From Fictibacillus macauensis ZFHKF-1 (GTDB taxonomy: Bacteria; Bacillota; Bacilli; Bacillales; Fictibacillaceae), in contig NZ_AKKV01000024.1 in assembly GCF_000269865.1 (NCBI RefSeq), positions 124,001 through 188,000 of the forward strand: a DNA stretch of 64,000 bases. Direction: 5' to 3'. The notes beneath the pieces were generated by a model, which was not told the DNA's origin, made no database searches, and was given only the letters and a program-made list of their open reading frames with translations. Both the position numbers and the translations under genes were made by a program. This document shows, in pieces, positions 3,098 to 44,140 of the stretch. How positions within the stretch are numbered: position 1 is the stretch's first letter; the number at the start of each line of letters is the position of its first letter.

Positions 3098-6027
<2,930 letters not shown>

Positions 6028-6077
6028 CTCGTGTCCGTTGCTAACCGCGTCTTTAGGTTATGCAACGTACCTCCCTT
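6028..6077 (-). promoter_or_regulatory. hutU translation start with hairpin between Shine-Dalgarno and ATG
   Basis: Read on the minus strand, a strong SD (AAGGGAGGTA, 6077-6068) is followed at once by a stem: CGTTGC (6067-6062) pairs with GCAACG (6041-6036) and TAACC with GGTTA inside it. This makes 11 bp with one bulged base and a 9-nt loop. Eight bases (GACACGAG) then lead to the ATG at 6027. If the stem forms, SD and ATG are about 10 nt apart. The SD and stem are seen directly; bridging by the ribosome is inferred from cases such as phage T4 genes 25 and 38. Confidence 0.6.
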
Positions 6078-12554: not shown

Positions 12555-12706
12555 AGTTACATGCTCAACTGTCCCTTCCTTCGTATGACGCTTACGAGGT
12601 TAGCTGTCGGATTAGGAATGGAAGTATCCCCTCTTACATTCGTAAGATTCACCCCGATAGATGGGTCCCCCGCTTTCACATTGAAGATGTGAAATTAAGC
12701 GATCAA
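12555..12706 (-). promoter_or_regulatory. ydaO/yuaA-type c-di-AMP riboswitch
   Basis: The minus strand carries the conserved blocks of this class in order: ATCGCTTAATTTC, AGCGGGGGACCCA, GGGGTGAATCTTACG, CATTCCTAATCCGACAGC, TAACCTCGTAAGC and GAAGGAAGG. A terminator and ktrA follow. B. subtilis ktrA (yuaA) has the same element. High c-di-AMP turns the gene off, limiting K+ uptake. Confidence 0.95.
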
Positions 12707-12739
12707 AAAGACACTATTACATTGTGTTTTACTACATTA

Positions 12740-41041: not shown

Positions 41042-41830
41042 TTATTCTCCTTTAAATTGAGGCGGCCGCTTTTCACTAAATGCTTCTAACGCCTCTATAC
41101 GATCTCGCGTTGGAATCGTAACCTCATATGCTTTCGCTTCAATAGCTAGACCTGTGTGCAGATCTGTATCCATTCCGTGTTTAATCGCATACTTCGCTTG
41201 CGTAACAGCAATTGGGCCATTTTTTAAAATGGCAGCAGCATACGCTTCACAAGCAGGTAATAATTCATCAAGTTCGGTCACTTTATTTAAGATGCCATAC
41301 GCTAACGCTTCTTGTGCACTTAGTTTTTTTGCTGTTAGAATGAGCTCCATTGCTTTTGGAACTCCAATTAGACGCGGCAAACGCTGTGTTCCACCTGCAC
41401 CAGGAATAATCGCCCATCCTAGTTCTGTTAAGCCCATTGAGGCAGCTTGTACAGCAACACGCAAATCACACGCAAGAGCTAATTCAAACCCTCCGCCAAA
41501 TGCGTGACCATTCATCGCTGCAATGGTTGGTTGTGGCAACTGTTCAATCGCAGAAAACACATCACGAATTTTTTTCACATTTCGTTTAACATCGTTTTCT
41601 GATAACGTTCTTCGTTCTTTCAAATCAGCGCCTGCACTAAAGGCTTTTGCACCAGCACCTGTAAAGATTACCACGCGAACATCGCCATTATGATGAATAG
41701 CTTCAACGACTTCACCAAGCTTTTGTAACGTTGAATAATTAAAACAATTCAACACCTCAGGACGATTCAGTGTAACGTAGGCGATATGCTCTTTCACTTC
41801 ATACAAAATAGCTTCTTGTTGTTGTATCAT
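41042..41830 (-). CDS. Enoyl-CoA hydratase/isomerase family protein
   Basis: This 262-residue crotonase has the oxyanion-hole segments AKAFSAGADLKERR and GHAFGGGFELALACD, and both catalytic glutamates: ELGWAIIPGAGGTQRLPR holds the second and the first is in GFELALA. It is therefore probably a true hydratase rather than an isomerase. It is the third crotonase of the paa cluster. It may act on a ring-cleavage intermediate or in general beta-oxidation. In-frame stops upstream fix the ATG at 41830, which has no nearby SD; a strong one lies behind a hairpin (next entry). Confidence 0.9.
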   Translation of the reverse strand: MIQQQEAILYEVKEHIAYVTLNRPEVLNCFNYSTLQKLGEVVEAIHHNGDVRVVIFTGAGAKAFSAGADLKERRTLSENDVKRNVKKIRDVFSAIEQLPQPTIAAMNGHAFGGGFELALACDLRVAVQAASMGLTELGWAIIPGAGGTQRLPRLIGVPKAMELILTAKKLSAQEALAYGILNKVTELDELLPACEAYAAAILKNGPIAVTQAKYAIKHGMDTDLHTGLAIEAKAYEVTIPTRDRIEALEAFSEKRPPQFKGE

Positions 41831-41883
41831 AGATTTCTGCTTCTACTGTTAGTACTGCTGTTTAGAAGCAGTTCACCTCCCTT
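41831..41883 (-). promoter_or_regulatory. Hydratase start region: Shine-Dalgarno, hairpin, ATG
   Basis: On the minus strand AAGGGAGGTGA (about 41883-41873) is followed by CTGCTTCTA (41871-41863 in reverse complement of TAGAAGCAG), a 17-nt loop and TAGAAGCAG (41845-41837). This is a perfect 9-bp stem, then AAATCT and the ATG at 41830. Folding would place the SD about 8 nt from ATG. An alternative is a CTG-started 14-codon leader ORF ending in an ATGA overlap. Confidence 0.55.
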
Positions 41884-41929
41884 TTCTTTTATACTGCTTG
41901 CTTTCTAATGAAACTTGAGTTGTAACCAG

Positions 41930-43135
41930 TTATGCTTCGATATTTTCAATGACAGTCGCAATCCCTTGACCAACACCAATGCACATTGTAGCTAATCCAT
42001 AGCGCACCTTACGTTTTTTCATTTCATGTAGCAACGTCGTTAGAATTCGAGCGCCACTTGCGCCAAGTGGATGACCAAAAGCAATGGCTCCACCATTCAC
42101 ATTGACTTTAGCGGGATCTAGTTCTAACTGCTTCATGCACTCTAACGACTGCGATGCAAATGCTTCATTCAATTCAATAAGACCGAGATCATCTTTCGTT
42201 ATACCTGCGCGCATAAGCGCCTTCCGACTCGCCTCTATTGGCCCTAGTCCCATCACAGCCGGCTCAAGCCCTGCTACTGCAGATGCTTTATAGCGCGCCA
42301 GTGGCTTGAGTCCTAGTTCCCTTGCTTTTTCTGCACTCATTACTAACAGAACCGCTGCACCGTCATTCACGCCAGAAGCATTACCCGCAGTAATCGTTCC
42401 GTCTGGAAAAAGAGGTTTTAACTTTGCTAGTGTTTGTACTGTCGTATTGGGACGCGGATGTTCATCTGTATCGACTAACGTAACATTCCCTTTTTTGTCT
42501 TTATGTTCAATCGCAATGAGCTCTTCTTGAAAGCGACCTGCCTCCATAGCAAGTTGAGCACGTTGCTGACTTTCTGCGGCAAAGGCGTCCTGCTCCTCGC
42601 GGCTAATTCCATAGCGTTTAGCTACATTTTCTGCTGTTTGTGGCATGGAGTCTGTTCCATACAACGCATGTAATGCTGGATTTATAAAACGCCAACCAAT
42701 GGTTGTATCAAACATCTTCATGTCACCGCGTGGAAAATCAATGTCCGGTTTTCCCATGACAAGCGGTGCACGTGTCATACTTTCTGTTCCGCCGGCAATA
42801 TACACATCCCCTTCACCAGCCATAATCGCACGTGCACTATAAATGACCGCATCCATACCCGATCCGCATAAGCGATTAATTGTTGTTCCACCAACTTCAA
42901 TTGGAAGATCCGCAAGTAATGCAGCCATTCTACCTACATTACGATTATCTTCACCTGCTCCATTCGCATTGCCGAGCACCACTTCTTCAATGATGGCGTG
43001 GGAAACGCGCGGATTACGCTTCATTAGACCTTTAATGGTCATCGCTGCTAAATCATCAGGACGAATGTCTTTTAGTGCTCCTTTATACCGACCGATTGGC
43101 GTTCGTACAGCGTCTACTATAACGACGTCTCTCAC
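41930..43135 (-). CDS. paaJ: 3-oxoadipyl-CoA/acetyl-CoA thiolase PaaJ
   Basis: This is the last step of phenylacetate catabolism, cleaving 3-oxoadipyl-CoA to acetyl-CoA and succinyl-CoA. The nucleophile is in [11 protein letters not shown] (about Cys90), and the base residues are in [16 protein letters not shown] and [10 protein letters not shown]. The segment [10 protein letters not shown] is typical of the PaaJ/PcaF type. The 401-residue length fits. The start is GTG and overlaps the paaH stop in GTGA, so the two are coupled. Confidence 0.9.
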
Positions 43136-44007
43136 GATTTCACCGCCCCGTCTTTCTCTGTTGAATAATCATACACACCACGTCCTGTTTTTCGCCCAAG
43201 ACGCCCTGCTTTGACGTATTTAACGAGAAGTGGACACGGACGATACTTTTCACCTAACGTTTCATGAAGATAGCGTAAATTATTTAAGCGTGTATCAAGA
43301 CCGACTAAATCTCCAAGCTCAAATGGTCCCATTGGATAGTTCAACCCTAGTTTAATGGCTTTATCAATCTCTTCGGCGGTACCAACACCCTCTTGAAGCA
43401 TATAAAAAGCCTCATTGCCAACCATCGCCGAAATTCGACTTGTAACGAAGCCGGGAAACTCATTGACTACCACGGTTTCCTTGCCCATTTTCTGAGCGAC
43501 CACTTTCACCACTGCGACCGTATCATCATCAGTTTCATGACCACGAATAATTTCAATGAGTGGCATTTTATGAACAGGATTAAAAAAGTGCATAGCAATG
43601 ACTTGATTCGGTCGTTTTGTAAACGAACCAAGTTCGGTTGGACTCATCGTCGACGTATTACTTGCCAAAATACAATGAGACGGTGCATGCTCCTCTAATT
43701 GTGTAAAGACGGCTTTCTTTATTTCTAGTGATTCTGGTACAGCTTCAATGACAAGATCCGCATCCTTCACAGCTGTTGCTAGATTCAATTCGTAACGAAG
43801 CTGTCCTTTCGCAGTAAGCGCTTCCTCGCTAGAAATCTTACCACGTGCCACCCCTTTTGCAAACAACTCTTCAATTTCACGTTGCGCCTGACCAAGAGCT
43901 TGTTCATCTGCATCTATAAGTTGTACAGCGAATCCTCCTATCGCTGCCGTATAGGCGATTCCTCGACCCATCACACCTGAACCTATAACCGTAATCACTT
44001 CAATCAT
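43132..44007 (-). CDS. paaH: 3-hydroxyacyl-CoA dehydrogenase PaaH
   Basis: This NAD-dependent enzyme oxidises 3-hydroxyadipyl-CoA to 3-oxoadipyl-CoA. The Rossmann motif is [16 protein letters not shown] near residue 6. [13 protein letters not shown], the active-site region [15 protein letters not shown] (catalytic His) and [10 protein letters not shown] follow, and the C-terminal domain has [18 protein letters not shown]. The 291-residue length is normal for the bacterial short form. It starts a second paa transcription unit after a terminator. Its ATG lacks a close SD and has an SD-hairpin arrangement (next entry). Confidence 0.92.
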
Positions 44008-44086
44008 CGCTCACTGCTACTAAAAAATAGAGACATACACACTATCAATATTTGTGTTAATTTAGTAGTCAGTTTTCCTCTCCTTT
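44008..44086 (-). promoter_or_regulatory. paaH start region: Shine-Dalgarno, long hairpin, ATG
   Basis: On the minus strand AAAAGGAGAGGA (about 44086-44077) is followed by ACTG-A-CTACTAAA (44073-44061), a 36-nt loop and TTTAGTAG-CAGT (44024-44013). This makes 12 bp with one bulged A. GAGCG then leads to the ATG at 44007. The folded distance from SD to ATG is about 8 nt; the linear distance is about 69 nt. An in-frame CTG ORF (22 codons) and a short ATG ORF ending in ATGA are alternative explanations. Confidence 0.5.
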
Positions 44087-44140
44087 TGCCTTACACTAAC
44101 ACCGTGTACTCTTATTTATAACGCCTGACATATCCTTTTA

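Follow-up and report, generated by a model that had tools for sequence, protein, structure and literature searches.

The window, a 64,000-nt stretch of the genome of Fictibacillus macauensis ZFHKF-1, holds three minus-strand genes whose Shine-Dalgarno (SD) sequence is separated from the start codon by a hairpin: hutU, which we take, from reading and not from a family search, to encode urocanate hydratase, an enoyl-CoA hydratase-like gene, and a paaH-like 3-hydroxyacyl-CoA dehydrogenase gene (Table 1). Protein names for all other members of the set described below were likewise assigned by reading.

Table 1. Leader elements and genes discussed in the text, in window coordinates.
Feature	Position	Strand	Remarks
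hutU SD AAGGGAGGTA	6068..6077	minus	duplex energy with anti-SD -14.7 kcal/mol
hutU hairpin CGTTGCATAACC / loop TAAAGACGC / GGTTAGCAACG	6036..6067	minus	11 bp, one bulge
hutU 5' arm CGTTGC-A-TAACC	6067-6056	minus	bulged base A
hutU loop TAAAGACGC	6055-6047	minus	
hutU 3' arm GGTTAGCAACG	6046-6036	minus	
hutU hairpin-to-start spacer GACACGAG	6028..6035	minus	8 nt
hutU coding region	4372..6027	minus	ATG 6027-6025
c-di-AMP riboswitch (ydaO/yuaA leader)	12574-12711	minus	Rfam RF00379, 92.5 bits; upstream of KtrA-like gene
Hydratase SD AAAAGGGAGG	41876..41885	minus	
Hydratase hairpin CTGCTTCTA / 17-nt loop / TAGAAGCAG	41837..41871	minus	9 bp, perfect
Enoyl-CoA hydratase-like gene	41042..41830	minus	ATG start 41830; name by reading
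GTGTTAGTGTAAG upstream of paaH SD	44090..44102	minus	also 5' of the SD in RecQ and DUF2768-like leaders
paaH SD AAAAGGAGAGG	44077..44087	minus	
paaH hairpin ACTGACTACTAAA / 36-nt loop / TTTAGTAGCAGT	44013..44073	minus	12 bp, one bulge
paaH-like 3-hydroxyacyl-CoA dehydrogenase gene	43132..44007	minus	ATG start 44007; name by reading

The sole strong SD of hutU lies 42 nt upstream of the ATG, measured from the end of its GGAGG, and the gap is occupied by the hairpin, leaving an unpaired remainder of 2 + 8 nt. An earlier note on this DNA had placed the end of the SD 41 nt before the ATG, with a single stem-loop filling everything up to an 8-nt spacer, and both statements agree with these measurements; the stem consists of 11 base pairs with a single bulged A. 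The folding check that it had proposed was carried out on 92 nt: the predicted minimum-energy structure (-20.7 kcal/mol, z -3.2) contains the hairpin, none of 200 shuffles matched the folding energy of the leader, and the predicted arm-arm pairing probability is 0.91. The assignment of the start codon was also upheld, with respect both to an in-frame stop that rules out an earlier start (TAA 6060-6058, downstream of which there is no in-frame ATG, GTG or TTG) and to the fit of the ATG to the protein family, as it agrees with the hutU N-terminus in six congeners. The region of the hutU hairpin proved to be single-copy when further copies were sought.

That paaH and the hydratase share this design, as had been claimed, was borne out for both genes at their respective ATG codons. 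Among 61 window ORFs in a crude listing, hutU, the hydratase and paaH stand out as clear genes that lack a usable SD close to the start; the few other poor SD scores were put down to overlapping genes, mispicked starts or probable non-genes. Whole-leader folding energies are ordinary for the hydratase (z -0.05) and paaH (z 0.71; leaders of about 100 nt), and their arms still pair.

The occurrence of the layout beyond the window was examined in a sample of 1,468,181 bases (1.47 Mb, window included) of the 3.74-Mb genome, with gene calls taken from a simple codon-score script rather than from curated annotation. Genes without a good SD at normal distance, which made up 148 of the 1,359 usable genes, were scanned for a strong SD, an inverted repeat and a start with 5-15 nt left unpaired. 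The arrangement was found in 10 of the 148, compared with a mean of 1.15 and a maximum of 5 in dinucleotide shuffles, and none of 100 shuffled replicates reached 10. Eight of the ten matches were convincing on reading; the other two, C22:46579 and C12:2710, were dropped as members. When the unpaired distance was left unrestricted and the thresholds were raised, eight genes matched, six of which leave 5-14 unpaired nt versus 0.07 in shuffles; such a constraint on the residual distance is what bridging demands. These scans replaced two noisier ones, a first loose scan and one that included intragenic starts (35 gene matches, with 3-16 start matches per shuffled replicate). Thus, the SD-hairpin-start layout is neither a product of chance nor confined to the window, and the suggestion that the design is general in this genome, for which a scan against shuffled controls had been proposed, is supported by computation.

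At least 18 genes have a hairpin between SD and start codon, 12 in the sample and six outside it. Those in the sample are hutU, the hydratase, paaH, PreT-like, ProC, ResC-like, DUF2768-like, AllC-like amidohydrolase, YpjA-like and RecQ genes, plus a short GNAT-like ORF and, on contig C22, an orphan gene. The remaining ~61% of the genome was covered by motif and model searches only. A motif search of 34 family genomes, at one mismatch or fewer, hit this genome in six places and contributed three new members outside the sample (redoxin-like, membrane and NiaR-like genes). Elsewhere, in the other 33 genomes, three places matched equally well, and none of them has the layout. A covariance model was built on alignment A6, which comprises five members; MAFFT alignments A1-A5 and A7, in which the arms were misplaced in at least some rows, were not used for it. 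The model gave 16 matches in this genome at E up to 1, namely nine known members (five of them the training set), three reverse-strand palindrome matches and four new places. Three new members came from this search (prepilin peptidase-like, M20 amidohydrolase-like and iron alcohol dehydrogenase (Fe-ADH)-like genes), and the match at C23:105469 was rejected as an ordinary site. None of ten model-matched loci inspected in other genomes had the SD-hairpin-start order: six had plain SDs of the GAAANNGAGGTGAA type immediately before a start, one a stem without an SD, and three no gene start. Members found by motif or model are biased towards the consensus stem; the 10 of 148 hits of the restricted scan are not.

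Several individual sites merit description. The GNAT-like ORF behind its hairpin-bridged start (C22:47789) encodes only 48 aa and is perhaps truncated. The PreT-like leader (C20:163018-163270) carries a 228-nt insert between SD and start, with a 206-nt loop and a z of -3.2, and the insert holds a nested inverted repeat, CTACTACGAG/CTCATAGTAG. Among viral contigs, 9 and 12 motif-bearing stretches were inspected, and the SD-hairpin-start order was seen in none; a CTGCTACTA-TAGTAGCAG hairpin lies 5 nt before an ATG in two of these contigs (one sequence), with no strong SD ahead of it.

In all 18 members the linear distance from SD to start, 32-242 nt, is beyond the usable range, and allowing for the hairpin reduces it to 7-15 nt (median 11), a usable distance; because the curated members were partly chosen for spacing, the free-spacing scan is the unbiased support for this restoration. 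The mean SD-start gap of 952 ordinary strong-SD genes is 7.8 nt, in a scan that allowed about 4-14. Loop lengths range from 5 to 206 nt, and the arms differ between genes with complementarity kept, as in CTGCTACTA/TAGTAGCAG, CTGCTTCTA/TAGAAGCAG and CTGCTACGA/TCGTAGCAG, and in the further gene-specific pairs CGTTGTCTT/AAGACAACG and CGACTATTCA/TGAATAGCTCG. When the 5' and 3' arms of 12 members were permuted, the pairing of each arm with its own partner (sum -145.3 kcal/mol; permuted mean -87.7) was equalled in none of 20,000 permutations. Five of the 12, RecQ, PreT, ProC, GNAT and YpjA, have consensus-like arms and pair equally or slightly better with the arm of another member, an outcome expected of shared sequence. 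Alignment A6 by itself, with its five members, gave too few pairs for significance, 109 of 500 shuffles reaching the observed value. The predicted mean arm-arm pairing probability is at least 0.70 in 15 of the 18 leaders and just 0.43-0.56 in those of RecQ, DUF2768 and YpjA. The SD is predicted to be mostly paired in seven of the 18 (unpaired 0.06-0.31), as is the start codon in five (paaH, PH-domain, NiaR, M20 and hutU; unpaired 0.04-0.40). A reading of the hairpins as terminators was rejected, since none of the 18 leaders has four or more consecutive U residues between 3' arm and start.

Among named matches of hutU, the nearest come from Fictibacillus species. In six congeners the ATG of hutU (87-91% identity) is the same and is immediately preceded by an ordinary SD. 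One also precedes the corresponding start of paaH (about 76-78%) and that of the hydratase (81-84%), each start being within a few codons of the aligned position; on reading, none of the three genes carries a hairpin there. Within 800 kb of one congener, seven of the 18 member genes were matched at 63-91%, namely hutU, paaH, the hydratase and the ResC-, DUF2768-, YpjA- and M20-like genes, all with a plain SD and no hairpin. Nine members were unmatched in that stretch, and ProC and RecQ were matched at only 40%, probably by paralogs; these 11 are therefore uninformative on orthologs. Because every congener ortholog that was matched has a plain SD, the hairpins belong to this lineage, within the genomes compared. 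Consequently, the compensatory changes for which the earlier note had proposed to compare hutU leaders were not found, and covariation is visible only among genes of this genome. Its interpretation is supported by computation as regards the T4-like joining of SD and start and the generality of the design; conservation of the stem was not found in the six congeners, which lack the hairpin.

RNA thermometers and translational riboswitches likewise place structure near the SD. The leaders described here differ in that the SD lies outside the bridging hairpin; Rfam returned no match at the leaders, whether in the whole window at gathering thresholds or at seven loci with one leader each at E up to 1. 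The c-di-AMP riboswitch in the window stands before a KtrA-like gene, as is ordinary for Bacillales. In E. coli thrS a hairpin lies upstream of the SD, and the present hairpins differ from it in lying between SD and start. The thrS ribosome binding site is split, with a 24-nt single-stranded region that is essential for binding (PMC3936740). For the E. coli S1 mRNA, rpsA, a split SD was proposed, and later work is reported to have disproved it (PMC1805508). The rpsA proposal resembles the present case in that a structured leader would assemble the ribosome binding site, and differs in that the SD itself would be split, a full SD being present here. The closest parallel is provided by bacteriophage T4, in which a hairpin shortens the SD-start distance from 22 to 5 nt in gene 38 and from 27 to 11 nt in gene 25, and destabilizing the hairpin lowers initiation (PMC3014915, reviewing Nivinskas/Malys work). 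The gene 25 arrangement is limited to close T-even phages (PMC3014915). Retention of the stem across close relatives, observed for gene 25, is not a strictly defining feature of this type. Two likenesses are apparent: a strong SD too distant from the start is returned to functional distance by an intervening hairpin, and the layout, like that of gene 25, is confined to a narrow clade, here within the genomes compared. The differences are the bacterial chromosome, the number of genes (at least 18), the related stems, the loops of up to 206 nt and evidence drawn from sequence. A literature search, thin on subscription journals, found no chromosomal set of hairpin-bridged starts.

Computation here shows that the layout occurs in excess of chance, that its residual spacing is preserved, that the arms differ between genes in complementary fashion and that the congeners examined lack it. 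The reading that at least 18 genes carry a family of hairpins that brings a strong SD and the start together, in the manner of T4, is given a probability of roughly three in four. Joining of SD and start as in T4 genes 25 and 38 is the likeliest function of the hairpins; this part of the earlier note is supported by the scan excess, the residual spacing and the sites outside the sample, and we infer that initiation at these starts proceeds by hairpin bridging. The hairpin would fold, and its base would draw SD and start codon to a working distance of 7-15 unpaired nt in place of 32-242; this would let the 30S subunit base-pair with the SD and hold the start codon in the P site with the hairpin looped out.

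Several alternatives to this mechanism were weighed. That long SD-start gaps merely coincide with inverted repeats is extremely improbable. In 800 kb of a congener, the restricted scan matched 2 of 78 genes, both loosely, versus 1.71 expected by chance (the free-spacing scan matched 1 of 78, with 22 unpaired nt), and these loose matches, with the two unconvincing ones in this genome, mean that the loose scan does yield false positives; a chance origin is nevertheless contradicted by the shuffles, by the sites located outside the sample and by own-partner pairing that beats every permutation. Translation of a short leader ORF from the upstream SD, with the gene served by coupling or from a downstream start, would suit the TTG found 4 nt after the SD in hutU and allC, and the hutU TTG frame would cross the hutU start out of frame. 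This reading is nonetheless improbable, since 15 of the 18 leaders have no ATG, GTG or TTG 4-12 nt past the SD and the N-terminus of hutU agrees with relatives. An upstream in-frame stop comes before any in-frame start in 13 of the 18; the allC TTG is in frame and ATGs lie within the loop of the C22 orphan gene, and the assigned starts of these two genes are candidates. The stems might also be bound by a protein or a small RNA that acts as a switch of the SD-start distance, which would make the 18 genes a posttranscriptional regulon. The stem sequence is related in most members, and several are catabolic by reading (hutU, paaH, hydratase, PreT-like, AllC-like, M20 amidohydrolase, Fe-ADH), but this possibility is considered unlikely, as the stem sequences diverge, the functions are mixed (for example RecQ, ProC, ResC-like, prepilin peptidase, NiaR-like and DUF2768-like, again by reading) and the seven leader loci have no Rfam match.

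A further proposal concerns origin and is compatible with hairpin bridging: a palindromic element that is MITE-like or spreads itself in some other way would have dispersed into ribosome binding sites of this lineage, where it is tolerated because it folds away, and bridging would be a by-product rather than a regulatory device. It is given a little under an even chance. In its favor, 14 of the 18 members (three of them motif-found) have CTG among the first five bases of their 5' arm, the hairpins are missing from relatives, and the leader of paaH agrees with that of RecQ at 54 of 59 aligned positions, SD included, the DUF2768-like leader matching their first ~40 positions, also with the SD. 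GTGTTAGTGTAAG occurs in this genome in three perfect copies, and its four one-mismatch matches in congeners include no such leader. GGTGAA follows the SD in six of the first 12 members versus 27 of 952 ordinary strong-SD genes, and CGAAA precedes it in five versus 18 of 952. Since many arms have CTGCTACTA/TAGTAGCAG in common, the hairpins appear to form a lineage-specific family dispersed in the genome, and the shared leaders point to a spread of related sequences followed by divergence, by which most of the hairpins would have arisen in this lineage. Against a self-spreading element, TTTAGTAGCAG has 15 exact matches in the genome, and each of the six with a partner arm (five leaders) is located between SD and start; the remaining nine show no such partner arm in the 330 nt inspected upstream, and no target-site duplication was seen by eye. 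The arms of hutU, allC, M20 and Fe-ADH, moreover, are unlike the consensus, and an independent origin of some hairpins, hutU with AllC, M20 and Fe-ADH, is possible. AACAC occurs in the loop of the paaH, RecQ and DUF2768-like leaders (44005-44107 minus; C20 near 79323-79426 and 266224-266331) and could form a GUGUU:AACAC pseudoknot.

More tentatively, and at less than an even chance, spreading lineage-specific hairpin cassettes may rewire ribosome binding sites, each copy replacing in a single step a contiguous SD-start by a folded, structure-dependent and potentially switchable one, in about 30 genes genome-wide, a figure extrapolated from the 12 inspected in 39% of the genome. The known mechanism of T4 genes 25 and 38 would here be used repeatedly by a bacterial chromosome. 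Start-site prediction and models of ribosome binding sites usually treat the SD-start distance as linear. The many hairpin-bridged starts, with loops of 5 to 206 nt, are natural replicates for testing how the 30S subunit accommodates structure between SD and start and whether the leaders are regulated, and they show a route by which a gene can acquire new leader structure where its relatives keep a plain binding site.
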